Shown: piece by piece, positions 18,178-25,483 of the stretch
Layout: the number at the start of each line of letters is the position of its first letter
How positions within the stretch are numbered: position 1 is the stretch's first letter
Program-made: the position numbers and the translations under genes
DNA from: Marinicauda algicola
GTDB taxonomy: Bacteria; Pseudomonadota; Alphaproteobacteria; Caulobacterales; Maricaulaceae
Assembly (NCBI RefSeq): GCF_017161425.1
Contig: NZ_CP071057.1
Coordinates: 2,109,501-2,173,500 of the forward strand
Direction of reading: 5' to 3'
DNA: 64,000 bases
The notes under the pieces: generated by a model
Databases searched by the model: none
What the model was told of the DNA's origin: nothing
Seen by the model: the letters and a program-made list of their open reading frames with translations, nothing else

Positions 18178-18211
18178 AGAAAAACCCCCGCTCCGGGTGG
18201 AGCGGGGGTCC
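18178..18211 (-). terminator. Attenuator terminator of the ilv-leu operon
   Basis: On the minus strand ACCCCCGCTCC (18209-18199) pairs with GGAGCGGGGGT (18194-18184): a perfect 11-bp stem with an ACCC tetraloop, followed by a T-rich run TTTTTCTTTG. It sits between the leader peptide stop and ilvC. The upstream 5' arm can pair alternatively with GGAGCGGCGG at 18257-18248 inside the leader peptide gene (9 of 10 bases), a ready-made antiterminator. Together these features are the classic transcription attenuator. Confidence 0.92.
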
Positions 18212-18236
18212 TGTGTGTCTGGTTTGATCGTTTCCG

Positions 18237-18359
18237 TCAGACAGGGGCCGCCGCTCCGGTTATGGAGGTAATAAGCACGACAAGAAGGACGAGCGTCGCC
18301 AGCGCGACGGCGGCGAGCCGTTCGCTGGGGTCGATCGCAAGAGTCTTCGTGTCGCGCAT
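18237..18359 (-). CDS. ilv-leu operon leader peptide
   Basis: A 40-residue open frame from the ATG at 18359, ending 26 bp before the attenuator stem. Its core [17 protein letters not shown] (about residues 19-35) holds five Leu, four Val counting Val18, and two Ile, so a ribosome translating it would pause when any branched-chain aminoacyl-tRNA is short. The run includes CTT, ATT and ATA codons that are uncommon in such a GC-rich genome, which should sharpen the stall. An AGGA sequence 11 bp upstream is a weak ribosome-binding site. The last codons (GGA GCG GCG) overlap the predicted antiterminator. No independent protein function is expected. Confidence 0.9.
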
Positions 18360-18419: not shown

Positions 18420-18625
18420 TCTTGCTGCGCTTGCGAGCAAAACCGATCTGTTGAAAACCGTATGTCGGAAAGCGGATTGGCGGCAACAGGGAAAATGCAA
18501 GATTTGGAGAAAAAATTTTTCTCTTATTGGTTACAGTATGTTGTACTGCATGAGATGCTTTCGCGATGGACGAATGTTGCATTTTTACAACAGGACGCTG
18601 GTTGACGTATCCTGGAAAAGAGCCG
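18420..18625. promoter_or_regulatory. AT-rich divergent promoter region between the ilv-leu and thr leaders
   Basis: This is the only strongly AT-rich stretch in the surrounding 15 kb and separates the two divergently read leader regions. It contains two compact inverted repeats: GAGAAAAA-A-TTTTTCTC at 18507-18523 and CAGTA-TGTTG-TACTG at 18534-18548. Either could be an operator, for example for an Lrp-like factor, or simply a bent AT tract; that is inference. A confident leftward promoter was not found by eye. Confidence 0.5.
18585..18613 (+). promoter_or_regulatory. Candidate sigma-70 promoter for the thr operon leader
   Basis: TTACAA at 18585-18590 and TATCCT at 18608-18613 are separated by exactly 17 bp and lie about 62 bp before the thr leader ATG. 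Transcription would begin near 18620. Both hexamers match the consensus only moderately, so this is a prediction. Confidence 0.45.
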
Positions 18626-18674: not shown

Positions 18675-18821
18675 ATGACGGCGATGTCGCCGCTCGATCT
18701 CTGCGGAATTCACGGCGCCGGTGATCCGGCCCCGGCGCTCCCGTGCGCGCAGCGTGTCGCCACCATTACCGTGACGATCACCACCCTTCTCCCGAACGGG
18801 GGGCGGTACGGCACGGGCTGA
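18675..18821 (+). CDS. thrL: thr operon leader peptide
   Basis: A 48-residue frame preceded by a GGGAGA ribosome-binding site five bases before the ATG. Residues 29-37 read ATITVTITT: five Thr, two Ile and one Val in nine codons (18762-18785 for the core), closely like the Thr/Ile run of enterobacterial ThrL. It ends 30 bp before a terminator stem. A ribosome stalled on these codons would leave GGGGGGCGG (18798-18806) free to pair with the 5' arm of the terminator. The peptide itself is unlikely to have a function. Confidence 0.92.
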   Translation: MTAMSPLDLCGIHGAGDPAPALPCAQRVATITVTITTLLPNGGRYGTG

Positions 18822-18851
18822 GTTCACACTCGAAAGACAAACCCGATCCAG

Positions 18852-18884
18852 ACCCGCTCCCCGACCCCGGCGAGCGGGTTTTTT
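18852..18884 (+). terminator. Attenuator terminator of the thr operon
   Basis: ACCCGCTC (18852-18859) pairs with GAGCGGGT (18872-18879); the loop can add a three-pair inner stem, and six T residues follow (18879-18884). An alternative ten-base pairing, CGGGGGGCGG at 18797-18806 with CCGCTCCCCG at 18854-18863 (one T-G wobble), would destroy the terminator. Location between thrL and thrA completes a standard attenuation module. Confidence 0.92.
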
Positions 18885-18938: not shown

Positions 18939-20690
18939 ATGGCTTCCGCCCTTGCAGACCCCGAAAAGGCATCGCGCCTTAGCGTCATCAAATTCGGAGG
19001 TTCGGTGCTGACGTGCGAGACCGATTTCCGCGCCGCAGGCGCGGAGACCTATCGCCATATCCGTACCGGGGAGAAGGCCATCATCATCGTCTCCGCTATC
19101 GCAGGCGAGACCGACGCGCTGCTGCGCCAGGCCGAGGCGCTCGGCGGAAGCGCGGCCGACACCGCCCGCCTCGTGCGGCTCGGCGAATACCGCTCGGCCG
19201 CCCTGATGGGGCTGGAGCTGGCCCGGCTCGGCGTGCGTACCCGCGTGCTCGACCCCCACGAAATCGGTCTCGTGGCACAGGGCGATCCGCTCGACGCCGA
19301 CCTCAGCGCTCTCGATGAAGCCGCGCTCGAGAGAGCGCTGGACGATGCGGATGCGCTCGTCGTGCCGGGTTTCACCGCAGGGCACGCGGTCCACGGGGCG
19401 GCGACGCTGGGGCGCGGCGGCACCGATCTGACCGCGGTCTTCTTCGCCGCGCGCACCGGGGCCGACCGGGTGCGGCTGATCAAGGATGTCGATGGCGTGT
19501 ACAGCGAGGATCCGGCCGTCAATCCGAAGGCTGCCCGCTATGACGCGCTCGATTACGACGCGGCGCTCCAGGCCAGCCGCGGCCTGATCCAGCCCAAGGC
19601 GATCGAGGCTGCCCGCGCGGGCGGAGTCGTCATCGAGGTCGCAGCCATGGGAGCGGGCGCGGCGACGCGGATCGCACCGGGCCCGGCGAGCCCGGGCCGG
19701 CTGCGCCATCGCGGGCCGATGCGCGTCGCTCTGCTGGGCTGCGGCGCCGTGGGGTCGGGCGTGCTCGATTACCTGCGCGGCCATCCGGAGCTGTTCGAGC
19801 TGAACCCGGTGCTTGTGCGCACCCCTTCCAGGCGGCGCGACGATCCGCGGGCCGCCTTCACGGCCCTGATCGGCGAGGCCCTCGATGGCGGGCCCGACCT
19901 CGTCGTGGAATTGCTCGGCGGGGCCGATGGCCCGGCCGCCATCATGCAGGGCGCGCTGTCGGCCGGCGCCCGCGTCGTCACCGCCAACAAGGCCGCGGTC
20001 GCGCGCCATTACGACGCCCTGCACGCCGGCGGCGAGTCCGGCCGCCTGGCCTATTCGGCCGCGGTCGGCGGCGGGGTCCCGGTGATCGAGCACGTCGCGG
20101 CACTGAAATCGGCAGGCCTCGCCTCGATCGAGGGCGTCATGAACGGGACGGCGAACTTCATCCTGGACAGGCTCGCCGCCGGTAGCGAATTCGGCGATGC
20201 GCTCGCCGAGGCCCAGCGCCTGGGCTTCGCCGAAGCCGATCCAAGCGCGGATGTGGAGGGCCACGACGCCGCCGACAAGCTGTCCATCCTGATCCGCGAG
20301 GCCTTCGGCGTCGCGCTGCCGCCCGATGACATCACCAAACAGTCCCTGAGCGAGGTCTCTGCCGACAAAGCCGCCGAGGCGGCCGCCAGGGGGCTCGTCT
20401 ACAAGCAGATCGGCCGCTGCCGCCTCGCAGGCGGCCGCGTCGAGGCGTCGGTGAGCGTCGAAACGGTTCCCGCCGGTCATCCCCTTGCCGGTGCGCGAAA
20501 CGAGGAGAACCGCTTCGTGCTCACCGATGCCGCCGGCCGGACCCGCGCGCTCTACGGCAAGGGCGCCGGACGCTGGCCGACGGCCGCCGCGGTATTCGCC
20601 GATATCATGGACATGCGCCGGGCCTGGTCGGGCGACGAGCGCGTCCAGGGGCGCGCAACCGTACGCGCCGCAGCGCTGAAATCGGCCTGA
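18939..20690 (+). CDS. thrA: Bifunctional aspartokinase / homoserine dehydrogenase lacking ACT domains
   Basis: 583 residues, against about 820 for E. coli ThrA. Residues about 10-225 are an aspartokinase catalytic domain: KFGGSVLT at the start, GEYRSAALM, then GRGGTDLTAVFFAARTGADR and DVDGVYSEDP. The chain then runs almost directly into homoserine dehydrogenase (MRVALLGCGAVGSGV at about 234), with NKAA, SAAVGGGVPVIEH, GVMNGTANFILDRL and the catalytic-lysine region EGHDAADKLSIL. The two ACT domains that bind threonine in ordinary ThrA are missing. The enzyme would therefore be expected to be insensitive to threonine, leaving control to the attenuator just upstream. No frameshift is visible. 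A second aspartokinase for lysine/methionine probably lies elsewhere. Confidence 0.93.
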   Translation: MASALADPEKASRLSVIKFGGSVLTCETDFRAAGAETYRHIRTGEKAIIIVSAIAGETDALLRQAEALGGSAADTARLVRLGEYRSAALMGLELARLGVRTRVLDPHEIGLVAQGDPLDADLSALDEAALERALDDADALVVPGFTAGHAVHGAATLGRGGTDLTAVFFAARTGADRVRLIKDVDGVYSEDPAVNPKAARYDALDYDAALQASRGLIQPKAIEAARAGGVVIEVAAMGAGAATRIAPGPASPGRLRHRGPMRVALLGCGAVGSGVLDYLRGHPELFELNPVLVRTPSRRRDDPRAAFTALIGEALDGGPDLVVELLGGADGPAAIMQGALSAGARVVTANKAAVARHYDALHAGGESGRLAYSAAVGGGVPVIEHVAALKSAGLASIEGVMNGTANFILDRLAAGSEFGDALAEAQRLGFAEADPSADVEGHDAADKLSILIREAFGVALPPDDITKQSLSEVSADKAAEAAARGLVYKQIGRCRLAGGRVEASVSVETVPAGHPLAGARNEENRFVLTDAAGRTRALYGKGAGRWPTAAAVFADIMDMRRAWSGDERVQGRATVRAAALKSA

Positions 20691-20701: not shown

Positions 20702-21646
20702 ATGATGCAGGCCCGAGCCAGCGCCCCGGCGAGTATCGGCAATGTAGCCGTGGGCTTCGATGTCCTTGGCCAGGCGTTCGACGCGGTGCGCGACACCGTC
20801 ACCGCAACCCGCGAAGACGCGCCGGGCGTGAGGCTGGGCACTGTGACCGGCCTGGTCGCCACGCTGCCCGCCGAGCCCGGCCGCAATACCGCGCTCGCCG
20901 CCGCGCAGGCCCTGCTGAATGCGGCCGGAGCCCGGTTTGGCGTCCGCCTGTCGATCCAGAAAGGCGTGCCGCTGAGCGCGGGTATGGGCGGATCTGCCTC
21001 CTCGGCCGTGGCCGCCGCCGCTGCGGTCAATGCCCTGCTGGACCCCCCGTTCGCAACACAGGACCTGCTCGGCTTCGCGCTCGAGGGCGAGCGCGCCTCG
21101 GCCGATCCCCCACCCTGGGACAATGTCATGGCGAGCCTTCTTGGCGGGCTCGTCATCGCGGCCCGCACCGAGCCCGCCCTGGTGCAGCGCATGCCCGTTC
21201 CGAAAGGCCTCGTCGCGGTGCTGCTCCATCCCGATGCCCGCATCGAGACGCGCCATGCGCGCGGTGTCCTGAAACCCAGCGTCGCGATGAACATCGCCGT
21301 CGAACACGCCCGAGCGATCAGCGCGTTCACGCTGGGCTGCGCCACCAATGACCGCGCTCTGATCCGGGCCGGCATGGAGGACCGGCTGGTCGAGCCGCAG
21401 CGTCGTTTCCTCTTGCCCGAGCTTGCCGCGGTAAAACGCGCCGCAGTCGGTGCCGGAGCGCTGGGTTGTTCGTTTTCCGGTTCCGGTCCCTCGGTTTTTG
21501 CGTGGACCGAAGCGGGCGATGCCGACAGGGTACAGGCCGCGATGGGCTCGGCGTTCACCGCCGCGGGCCGCGCCTTCACGCCCTATCGCGCCGCGCTCGA
21601 CAGCCCGGGCGTTCGGCTCGAGCCGATCGAGGAGGTGGTGGCGTGA
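20702..21646 (+). CDS. thrB: Homoserine kinase
   Basis: GHMP-superfamily kinase making O-phosphohomoserine. 314 residues; the ATP-binding loop is VPLSAGMGGSASSAVAAAAA, and the C-terminal GALGCSFSGSGPSVFA motif is also typical. It starts 11 bp after thrA with GGGAGAAG as ribosome-binding site and overlaps thrC by GTGA. This is the GHMP form, not the choline-kinase-like ThrB2 form common in alphaproteobacteria. Confidence 0.95.
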   Translation: MMQARASAPASIGNVAVGFDVLGQAFDAVRDTVTATREDAPGVRLGTVTGLVATLPAEPGRNTALAAAQALLNAAGARFGVRLSIQKGVPLSAGMGGSASSAVAAAAAVNALLDPPFATQDLLGFALEGERASADPPPWDNVMASLLGGLVIAARTEPALVQRMPVPKGLVAVLLHPDARIETRHARGVLKPSVAMNIAVEHARAISAFTLGCATNDRALIRAGMEDRLVEPQRRFLLPELAAVKRAAVGAGALGCSFSGSGPSVFAWTEAGDADRVQAAMGSAFTAAGRAFTPYRAALDSPGVRLEPIEEVVA

Positions 21647-22944
21647 AGTTCGTATCGACGCGAGGAGGATGCAGCCCCGCCTCGCTCAGCGACGCGATCC
21701 GTGCCGGACAGGCGCCCGATGGCGGGCTTTATATGCCCGAACGGATGCCCGAAGACCCGCTGGGCGGTCTTGCCGGCGAGGCCGGGCTGGTCAATGTCGC
21801 GGAGCGTCTGCTCGCACCCTTCTTCGCCGGAGACCGGCTGGAGGCGGAACTCGCCGACCTCTGCTCGCAGGCGTATGACTTCGATGTCCCGCTTTCGCGG
21901 CCCGATCCGGCACGCGGCGGGCTTCACGTGCTTGAGCTGTTTCACGGCCCGACCGGCGCATTCAAGGATTTCGGCGCCCGCTTCCTGATGGCCTGTCTCG
22001 ATCTTCTGGCCGAACCAGGAGCCCCGCTTACCGTACTCGCGGCGACCTCCGGGGATACGGGGGGCGCGGCGGGCGGCGCGGCGCAGGGCCGGCCCGGCGT
22101 GCGTGCGGTGATCCTGTTCGCCAAGGACCGCGTTTCCCCGTTCCAGCGTCATCAACTGACCTGCTGGGACGAGCCTGTAGCCGCGCTCGAGATCGAGGGC
22201 GATTTCGACGCCTGCCAGGCCCTGGTCAAGCAAGCCTTCGCCGACCGGGCCCTGAGCCAGCGCCACCGGCTGACGAGCGCGAACTCGATCAACCTGGCAA
22301 GATTATTGCCCCAGAGCGCCTATCTGGCCTGGGCCGCGCGGCGGGTTTTCGCAGAGACCGGCATGGCGCCGGGCCTGATCCTTCCCACCGGCAATCTCGG
22401 CCACGGCGTGGCGGCCCTGTTCGCGCGTGCCATGGGCGCGCCGCTCGGACCCCTGATCCTGGCCACCAACGCCAATGCGACGCTCTCCGACTGGATGGCC
22501 ACGGGCGCGTATCGCCCGCGCGCCTCGGTGCAGACTCTGGCCAACGCGATGGATGTCGGCGCGCCGAGCAATTTCGAACGGCTGACCCGTTTCGCCCCGC
22601 ATGGACGCCAGGTGCGCGTCGAACGCGTCGACGACGACGCGATCAGGGCGCGTATCAGAGCTGATTTCGAACGCTTCGGCCAGGTCTGGTGCCCCCACTC
22701 GGCTACCGCGGCCGAGGCGCATGCCCGCCTCTCGCCGCGCGAGCGCGAGACCCGGCCTTGGATTCTCGCCGCCACCGCTCACCCCTTCAAGTTTGCAGAA
22801 ACGGTCGAGCCGCTCATCGGCCGGGCGGTCGAGCCAAGCCCCGCGCTTGCGGCAATCGCCGACCGGACGAGCCGGGCGTTCACCTGCCCGGCCGATCTCG
22901 ACGCCCTGGCCGGCTATCTCGACACACTGACGGAGACTGTCTGA
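21643..22944 (+). CDS. thrC: Threonine synthase
   Basis: PLP enzyme converting O-phosphohomoserine to threonine. 433 residues from a GTG at 21643 that overlaps the thrB stop; the mature start KFVSTRGG and PDGGLYMPE are typical. The PLP-lysine is in [13 protein letters not shown], and the glycine loop is [10 protein letters not shown]. The stop overlaps the ilvD ATG (TGATG), which couples threonine synthesis to the isoleucine/valine pathway. Confidence 0.95.
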
Positions 22945-24632
22945 TGGCGAACACGACTCGTCCCTCCCACGCCCTGATCCGCGGCAATGCCCGCGCCCCG
23001 GCGCGCGCCATGCTCCGTGCAGCGGGCTTCGACGACGCGGCCATGGCCCGCCCTATGGTCGCGGTGGTGAACACCTGGACCGACGTGACACCCTGTAACA
23101 TGCATCTGCGCGGGCTCGCCGAGCACGCGCGGGACGGGATCGAGGAGGCGGGAGGCACGCCGGTCGAGTTCAACACGATCGTGGTCACCGACGGCATCGC
23201 CATGGGCACAGAGGGCATGCGCGCCTCGCTGATGAGCCGCGAGACGATCGCCGATTCCGCCGAGCTGGCCGTGCGCGGCCATAGCCTGGACGCGGTGCTC
23301 TTCCTGGTCGGATGCGACAAGACGCTGCCCGGAGCGGCGATGGCTGCGGCGCGGCTCAACCTGCCCAGCGTCATCCTCTATGGCGGGTCGATCATGCCGG
23401 GCCGGCGAGGACAGAGAGACCTGACCGTGCAGGATGTGTTCGAGGCCGTCGGGGCCTGCGCGGCCGGGCGGATTTCCCGGGACGAGCTCGCCGAGGTGGA
23501 AAAGGCCGCCTGTCCGGGGGCCGGCGCGTGCGGCGGCCAGTTCACCGCAAACACCATGGCTCTGGCGCTGACCGTGCTCGGCCTGTCGCCGATGGGTCTG
23601 AACGATGTGCCGGCGGTCCATCCGGGCAAGCCGGACGCCGCCAAGGCGGCCGGGCGCGCGGTGATGGCGGCGCTGCAGGCCGATTGCCGGCCGCGCGCCC
23701 TGATCACGGCGCAGGCGCTGAAGAACGCCGCGGCGGCCGTTACGGCGACGGCCGGATCGACCAATGCGGTGCTGCACCTGCTCGCCATCGCGCGCGAAGC
23801 CGGGGTCGCGGACAGCGAGTTCGACATCGACCAGTTCGACGCGATTTCGCGCGCCACGCCGGTGATCGCCGACCTCAAGCCGGGCGGGCGCTACATGGCC
23901 CCGGACATGAGCGCGGCCGGCGGTACGCGCCTGCTGGTCGAACGCATGCGCGAAGGCGGGCTTCTGGGCGACGCACCCACAGTCACCGGCAAATCGCTCT
24001 TCGAGGAAGCCGGCACGGCCGAGGAGGCGGCGGGCCAGGGCGTGATCCGCCCGCTCGACAGGCCGGTCAAGGCGCGCGGCGGATTCGGCGTGCTGTACGG
24101 CGATCTCGCGCCCGAAGGCTGCGTGGCCAAGCTGGCCGGCCACGACCGCCTCGCCTTCGAGGGACCGGCCCGCGTATTCGACAGCGAGGAGGCGGCCTTC
24201 GAGGCGATCACCCGGGGAAAGATCGAGAAGGGCGATGTCGTCGTGATCCGCCATGAAGGTCCCGCCGGCGGACCCGGCATGCGGGAAATGCTGGCCGTGA
24301 CCGCGGCCATCCAGGGCGCCGGTCTCGGCGACGATGTCGCGCTGGTCACCGATGGGCGCTTCTCCGGGGCGACCTATGGCTTCATGGTCGGCCACATCGC
24401 ACCCGAGGCCGCACGCGGCGGCCCGATCGCCTTCCTGCGGTCGGGCGACCGCGTGAGGATCGATGTCGAGGCCCGGCGCATCGACACCGATGCCGATCTC
24501 GCCGCGCGCGCCGCGGAGGGGTTCACCGCGCCGGCGCCGAAATACACCCACGGTGCGTACGCAAAATACGCCGCCCTGGTCGGTTCGGCCTCGCACGGCG
24601 CATTGACCTCCTTTCCGTTCGAGGTGCGGTGA
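22944..24632 (+). CDS. ilvD: Dihydroxy-acid dehydratase
   Basis: Third step of Ile/Val synthesis, and so a partner of IlvGMCE encoded on the opposite arm. 562 residues. Cluster-ligand cysteines appear in [20 protein letters not shown] and [15 protein letters not shown]; the C-terminal [20 protein letters not shown] is intact. It belongs to the short (about 560 residue) IlvD branch. Translation is coupled to thrC and to the following kinase by overlapping start/stop codons. Because it sits in the thr transcript, it would respond to the Thr/Ile attenuator and not the ilv-leu one. Confidence 0.96.
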
Positions 24633-25483
24633 TGACGACACAGCCGCTGCGCGGCGCGCAGATGTTCCGGGCCGCGCTCGACCGGACCGCGCGTCTGGTG
24701 ATCAAGATCGGGTCGAACCAGCTGGTCGATCCGGCAAACGGTCTGCCCAGAGCGAACATTTTCGAATCCCTTGCCGCCGATATCGCCGCTCTTCGCCAGC
24801 GTGGGGCAAAATGCGTTCTGGTCACCTCGGGCGCCGTGGCGTTCGGGCGACACAGGCTCGGCCTGCCGATGTGCCGCGCCCTGGCGCTCGACGAGAAGCA
24901 GGCCGCTGCCGCGGTGGGTCAGCTACTGCTGGCCGAGGCTTGGGCCCGCGCATTCTCGCAGCACGACATCCTGACCGGCCAGGCCCTGCTTTGTCCCGAG
25001 GACACCGAGCATCCCGTCCGGTTACGCAATGCGAGCAACACGTTCGAGCGATTGTTCCAGCTCGGCGTCCTGCCGCTCGTCAACGAGAACGATACCGTTG
25101 CCACCGAAGAGCTGCGGTATGGCGACAATGACTGTCTGGCCGCGCGGCTCACATCGCTGGTCCGCGCCGAGGGGCTGATCCTCCTGTCGGACATAGACGG
25201 GCTCTACACCAAGGATCCGTCGGTCTCACCCGACGCCAGCCCGATCGAGCACGTTCCATTTTCCGCGCTGGCCGGGCTGGATTGCGGCGGACCGCCCAGA
25301 GCCGGCGGGCCTGGCACCGGAGGGATGGCGAGCAAGCTCGATGCGGCACGAATCGCCGTGGCGTCAGGGTGCTGGGCCGTCATTGCGCGGGCCAGTGACC
25401 GGCCGCTCGGCGCGCCTCGCCAGACCATGCGCCTGACTTTCTTCGCACCCGATGCGGCGATCGCCAACGCGGGGCGCATCTAG
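24632..25483 (+). CDS. proB: Glutamate 5-kinase-like protein without PUA domain
   Basis: 283 residues consisting only of the amino-acid-kinase fold: VIKIGSNQLV, VTSGAVAFGRHRLGL, EKQAAAAVGQ, NENDTVATEELRYGDND, LLSDIDGLYTKDP and GTGGMASKLDAARIA all match ProB. The C-terminal PUA domain of ordinary ProB (about 370 residues) is absent. ProB makes glutamyl-5-phosphate for proline; its place at the end of a threonine/isoleucine operon is odd. Start chosen at 24632 (TGATG overlap with ilvD). It might be the only ProB or a paralogue with another substrate; no proA is next to it. Confidence 0.8.
   Translation: MTTQPLRGAQMFRAALDRTARLVIKIGSNQLVDPANGLPRANIFESLAADIAALRQRGAKCVLVTSGAVAFGRHRLGLPMCRALALDEKQAAAAVGQLLLAEAWARAFSQHDILTGQALLCPEDTEHPVRLRNASNTFERLFQLGVLPLVNENDTVATEELRYGDNDCLAARLTSLVRAEGLILLSDIDGLYTKDPSVSPDASPIEHVPFSALAGLDCGGPPRAGGPGTGGMASKLDAARIAVASGCWAVIARASDRPLGAPRQTMRLTFFAPDAAIANAGRI

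Follow-up and report, generated by a model that had tools for sequence, protein, structure and literature searches.

Predicted threonine attenuator with a hairpin at the leader stop codon upstream of the thrABC-ilvD operon of Marinicauda algicola

Is the threonine operon of Marinicauda algicola (genome size, 3.42 Mb) governed by translation of a short leader peptide? In the window, by which we mean the whole stretch of 64,000 nucleotides analyzed here, a Thr-rich open reading frame (ORF) and a terminator lie directly 5' of an operon with the gene order thrA-thrB-thrC-ilvD, followed by a proB-like gene, and the genes ilvC, ilvB, leuA, and ilvE are arranged divergently on the upstream side of the leader. 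We put at about 0.9 the probability that the region is a classic ribosome-mediated transcription attenuator of the thrABC-ilvD operon. This reading draws on the sequence, its conservation, the placement of codons, and the modelled energetics of alternative folds, from which we predict that ribosomes stall in the cell and that transcription is terminated there or released from termination.

Organization of the locus

The features of the thr leader and its operon are as follows:

18584..18613, + strand: candidate sigma-70-type promoter, TTTACA, 18 bases, TATCCT (low confidence)
18675..18821, + strand: leader peptide ORF of 48 codons, ATG 18675 to TGA 18819-18821, MTAMSPLDLCGIHGAGDPAPALPCAQRVATITVTITTLLPNGGRYGTG
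18797..18806, + strand: segment 2, antiterminator 5' arm, CGGGGGGCGG, within the leader ORF
18819..18832, + strand: stop-codon hairpin, TGAGT/ACTCG, in the antiterminator loop
18852..18859, + strand: segment 3, terminator 5' arm, ACCCGCTC
18854..18863, + strand: antiterminator 3' arm, CCGCTCCCCG, ten pairs with segment 2, one of them G·U
18872..18884, + strand: segment 4, terminator 3' arm GAGCGGGT (18872-18879) and T tract
18939..20690, + strand: thrA, aspartokinase-homoserine dehydrogenase fusion, 583 aa
20702..21646, + strand: thrB, homoserine kinase (GHMP type)
21643..22944, + strand: thrC, threonine synthase, start inferred at GTG 21643
22944..24632, + strand: ilvD, dihydroxy-acid dehydratase, start inferred at ATG 22944

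The leader ORF is present where an earlier note on this DNA had placed it, and thrA-thrB-thrC-ilvD follow directly; its product ends in ATITVTITTLLPNGGRYGTG immediately before the stop, and GGGAG stands six or seven bases 5' of its ATG. The Thr/Ile block occupies positions 18762-18785 (ACC ATT ACC GTG ACG ATC ACC ACC). The ten-pair antiterminator and the eight-pair terminator proposed by the same note were both recovered, the former with its one G·U pair and the latter with six T (T18879-T18884), the first of which is also counted in the stem. The distance from the Thr codons to segment 2, which had been put at about 12-35 bases, comes close to that range: 11 bases from the last Thr codon (18783-18785) and 32 from the first of the block (18762-18764). 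The antiterminator duplex has an energy of −19.8, compared with −13.2 ± 2.4 for shuffled sequences, and only 2 of 200 shuffles were as low; since, in addition, the whole layout recurs in relatives (see below), the arrangement exceeds chance. With their inferred starts, thrC overlaps thrB, and ilvD overlaps thrC. The proB-like gene (glutamate 5-kinase-like; 24629-25483, 284 aa) overlaps the end of ilvD. A promoter search of the region, confined to the window, returned 1 consensus match where 0.1 was expected.

According to the mechanism that we propose, with threonine (and isoleucine) plentiful the ribosome would pass the Thr/Ile codons and reach the stop codon, where it would cover part of segment 2 together with the stop-codon hairpin, so that segments 3 and 4 would form the terminator and RNA polymerase would leave. 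With charged tRNA-Thr (or tRNA-Ile) scarce, the ribosome would stall at codons 11-14 before the stop, and segment 2, lying just ahead of it, would pair with segment 3, allowing transcription to proceed into the enzyme genes. The stop-codon hairpin would help the pairing of segments 2 and 3 by shortening the antiterminator loop.

Conservation of the leader among relatives

A ThrA scan of the genomes of 84,980 species yielded 80 loci, 52 of which (L036-L087) carry the fusion or most of it. The ThrA relatives, with 33-74% identity, come from Maricaulaceae, Sphingomonas, and some others. A strong terminator with CCCGCT in its 5' arm stands shortly 5' of thrA at 42 of the 52 fused-thrA loci and is absent from the other ten (L075, L077-L084, and L086), which include Parvularculaceae/Marinicaulis-like and Phycisphaerae loci with 38-42% identity. 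An in-frame Thr-rich leader, ending 50-63 bases 5' of the T tract, was found at 40 of the 42 terminator-bearing loci, which gives 41 leaders counting the window; the bearers belong to Maricaulis, Oceanicaulis, Glycocaulis, Marinicauda, Alkalicaulis, Woodsholea, Sphingomonas, and unclassified MAGs. Two loci were dropped before the counts of 41, L076 with its leader off register and L073 with no leader in the required frame, and near-identical leaders (e.g., L053/L054, L061/L066, and L069/L070) were kept, so that the counts refer to sequences rather than events. At L073 (7783-7910), from Sphingomonas rhizophila, the terminator is kept and a Thr/Met-rich stretch is out of frame with the conserved stop codon; this leader may have decayed or may be read differently.

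All 41 leaders contain an in-frame ATG and appear to be translatable ORFs in which codons for the end product cluster; a simple test recognized no Shine-Dalgarno-like start in 15 of them. An intrinsic terminator separates the leader from the first gene, and the downstream genes make the amino acid for which the leader codes. The earlier note's interpretation as a thr attenuator is supported by the thr genes downstream, by recurrence in 41 sequences, and by modelling, in which stalling at the Thr codons favors the antiterminator and a ribosome at the stop codon the terminator. Pairing of segment 2 with the terminator 5' arm was matched in strength by at most 10 of 200 shuffles in 25 of 43 sequences, where about 2 would be expected. 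The terminator 5' arm hardly varies among the leaders, and true covariation in the antiterminator is therefore slight.

The control codons are placed with regularity. At codon −11, counted back from the stop, 37 of the 41 leaders have Thr, 34 of them with ACC; Thr is likewise frequent at −12 (29 leaders) and −13 (26) but drops to 9 leaders at −10. Overall, Thr fills 41% of codons 1-16 in the aligned leader stretch, with ACC used 207 times, ACG 38, ACA 18, and ACT 7. The leader Ile codons are mostly ATT (45 ATT and 25 ATC in the 41 leaders), as against 22 ATC and 0 ATT in thrA of the window.

These codons bear on what the switch senses. Several end products of homoserine might set it jointly, making it a multivalent Thr/Ile (in some clades Met) attenuator, a proposal to which we give slightly less than even odds. 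Ile and Met are frequent at codons −19 to −11 of the 41 leaders (Ile at −14 in 15, Met at −14 in 4, and Met at −13 in 8), the Sphingomonadales leader L085 (7774-7900) has the Met-rich block STMTAMMMMMTAM, and ilvD belongs to the operon in the window; yet the predominance of Thr at −11 noted above, and blocks consisting almost only of Thr in some leaders (L043 and L052), argue against it. Met codons are common in the leaders of Maricaulis and Sphingomonas, and such Met-rich leaders suggest a methionine input to the switch.

Modelled ribosome stalling

We modelled attenuation by moving a ribosome, assumed to mask 12 bases starting with the first of the A-site codon, codon by codon along the 41 leaders and folding the RNA ahead of it at equilibrium. 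The mean probability of the terminator, P(terminator), was 0.55 at −15, 0.41 at −14, 0.36 at −13, 0.33 at −12, and 0.35 at −11, and then rose to 0.84 at −10, 0.97 at −9, and 0.99 at the stop. Because Thr becomes scarce after −11 just as P(terminator) rises, the control codons end where the modelled switch flips. Shuffling the spacer raised the average P(terminator) at −11 from 0.35 to 0.90, and values below 0.5 at this codon were obtained for 27 of the 41 real leaders compared with 9.6% of shuffled spacers. For 30 leaders, P(terminator) fell below 0.5 at some codon between −19 and −7, as predicted for a mutually exclusive antiterminator; in the remaining 11, no codon in this range gave such a value. 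In the window, P(terminator) was 0.0 at the last two Thr codons and the following Leu codon and 1.0 from the next codon onward.

Folded without a ribosome, 38 of the 41 leaders favored the terminator. In nascent RNA, before synthesis of the terminator 3' arm, the 5' arm was mostly paired upstream in all 41 leaders with the ribosome stalled at −11 and in just 1 of them once it had reached the stop. It was mostly paired in the shuffled control as well (0.70 versus 0.83 for the real sequences), as expected from the high G+C content. The thr leader of Escherichia coli is a proven attenuator; in the same equilibrium model it gave a P(terminator) of 1.0 at every codon, so the model is insensitive and not decisive: it can miss a real switch, and its negatives mean little.

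A hairpin at the leader stop codon

In 38 of the 41 leaders, the region separating the leader stop from the terminator folds into a small hairpin, beginning 0-4 bases from the stop codon's first base. Its stability was reached by at most 10 of 200 shuffles in 19 of the 41, and the stems vary among clades (TGAGG/CCTCG or CCTCA, GCGC/GCGC, GTTC/GAAC, GAGG/CCTC, GCGGTT/AACCGC, and GGAAT/ATTCC). When pairs within the hairpin stretch were forbidden, mean P(terminator) at −11 climbed to 0.73 (0.35 with the pairs allowed), and only 9 of the 41 leaders, down from 27, stayed below 0.5; when the stretch was shuffled instead, P(terminator) was 0.82, the real value being lower in 35 of the 41 leaders and higher by more than 0.1 in none. 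In the window itself, the hairpin is weak (−2.9 kcal/mol, a value reached by 60 of 200 shuffles), and forbidding it changes P(terminator) only slightly (0.00 to 0.13). Judging from these energetics, the stop-codon hairpin probably aids the antiterminator, and we consider it the most interesting new feature of the system. The earlier note had overlooked both this hairpin and the divergent ilv attenuator described below.

The position of the hairpin, at which an arriving ribosome would melt it, would also suit an RNA polymerase pause hairpin, serving to synchronize polymerase with the ribosome more than to aid the antiterminator; we think this unlikely, given that the energetics alone explain the antiterminator role (forbidding the hairpin adds more than 0.1 to P(terminator) in 26 of the 41 leaders). 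The 41 aligned leaders form a set whose control codons lie at the predicted switching point, and the stop-codon hairpin lends itself to testing by simple mutations.

Covariance-model searches

In the genome of the window, the best match of the covariance model R1 is the thr leader (74.7 bits), and the only other match reported at E 0.01 is the ilv attenuator (41.5 bits). Within the family, R1 scored at least 56 bits in 28 of 99 genomes, and in all eight of these 28 for which a thrA position was available (G000, G001, G010, G011, G015, G026, G029, and G033) the match lies just 5' of thrA. The class-wide search gave a match at E 0.01 in 67 of 385 genomes. Thirty loci from it (L122-L151) have the terminator in most cases and the leader peptide only in the window's own L122; the others, showing no such leader peptide, were read as ordinary terminators. 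R1 is dominated by the terminator, and this search consequently does not show the reach of the element. Searches of plasmid and viral sequences revealed no close relative, the best plasmid match having 37% identity.

Such matches also bear on whether the terminator might be ordinary, or the target of another regulator, and the Thr-rich ORF a by-product of ACC-rich sequence: R1 matches apparently ordinary terminators in other Alphaproteobacteria at 28-40 bits, so that the terminator alone is not specific, and little Thr is encoded in the two remaining frames of the stretch, one of which is Pro-rich, as an ACC-rich stretch would yield, which makes an origin in base composition compatible with the codon counts alone, but we regard this explanation as highly improbable because the Thr codons vary (ACC, ACG, ACA, and ACT), are interspersed with Ile and Met codons, and form, 5' of threonine genes, a block that keeps a constant distance to the stop and lies close to segment 2 in 41 leaders.

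The divergent ilv attenuator and ThrA

Two features on the opposite strand point to a second attenuator, that of the divergent ilvC operon:

18237..18358, − strand: Leu/Val/Ile-rich leader ORF of the divergent ilvC operon, encoding a Leu/Val/Ile leader peptide
18181..18212, − strand: terminator of the ilv attenuator

The thr and ilv attenuators thus stand back to back, divergently, within 800 bases. A Leu/Val/Ile-rich leader with a terminator occurs at the equivalent site in all 13 loci scanned, the window included. Among eight lesser R1 matches from genomes of the family, four (L181-L184) lie 5' of ilvD with a Leu/Val/Ile leader, two (L187 and L188) also lie 5' of ilvD with less clear leaders, one (L185) lies 5' of another thrA, and at one (L186) none of the ten query proteins from the window matched. 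In 17 ilv leaders, the stop hairpin is placed alike in most, and only 2 of the 17 fall below 5% of shuffles. Comparison of the post-stop stretches of thr and ilv leaders gave a mean similarity of 6.67, above all 100 shuffles (maximum, 6.49); despite this higher mean, the best pair was no better than shuffles (23 of 100 reached it), and a common origin of the two is accordingly offered as a hypothesis.

ThrA of the window and two relatives match AA_kinase, NAD_binding_3, and Homoserine_dh, and none of the three matches an ACT domain at E 0.001, whereas the other aspartokinase of the genome matches two ACT families; this difference suggests that ThrA may have lost its feedback control. The thr operon was also considered as the sole threonine pathway and rejected. 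Besides another aspartokinase (the one with the ACT domains), the genome encodes another homoserine dehydrogenase, a second thrB that scores over the cut-off, and a further thrC-like gene that falls short of it.

Taken together, two divergent attenuators and a ThrA lacking a recognizable feedback domain would make a compact model for the division of control over the aspartate pathway between attenuation and allostery. More tentatively, the Maricaulaceae may possess a distinct attenuator design common to the thr and ilv operons, with a hairpin nucleated at the stop codon and nested in the antiterminator, in which a ribosome at the stop would turn the operon off by melting the hairpin and covering segment 2. 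The back-to-back pair might stem from one inverted duplication, and thr attenuation might have replaced a feedback inhibition lost with the ACT domains of ThrA.

Relation to known systems

A 2004 study by Vitreschak et al. is reported to treat attenuation of thr operons in Gammaproteobacteria and of ilv operons in Alphaproteobacteria. The present system would extend threonine attenuation beyond the Gammaproteobacteria to the Alphaproteobacteria. In the papers searched, which included few subscription titles, no thr attenuator was described for Maricaulaceae or Sphingomonas. An alphaproteobacterial ilvB leader peptide is mentioned in one report (PMC1273637). The ilv leader in the window is of the alphaproteobacterial kind, with a leader peptide and a terminator, which the thr leader shares while differing in its Thr-rich codons and the thrABC genes that follow. 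A further alphaproteobacterial Thr-rich candidate is SEP5 of Sinorhizobium meliloti, which its report (PMC10117765) presents as a small ORF that is translated and has six Thr codons toward its end, located in the 5' UTR of an aspartate-pathway gene, conserved in Sinorhizobium only, and proposed as a possible leader peptide; unlike the leader described here, SEP5, as portrayed there, also has Lys codons and precedes another gene.

At the locus, Rfam 15 gave no match over threshold, and the window scored 13.5 bits against the Thr_leader family (RF00506), for which the gathering cut-off is 55. The E. coli thr attenuator (thrL; RF00506) shares with the present one a Thr/Ile-rich leader, an antiterminator opposed to a T-tract terminator, and a position 5' of a fused thrA. 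The earlier note's comparison of the ATITVTITT stretch with ThrL holds as a functional likeness. It does not extend to the placement of segment 2, which falls 1 base short of the stop-codon end in E. coli and usually 9-15 bases short of it here. Furthermore, the fold of the E. coli leader has no hairpin between the stop and the terminator, whereas the leaders described here carry the stop-codon hairpin within the antiterminator loop.
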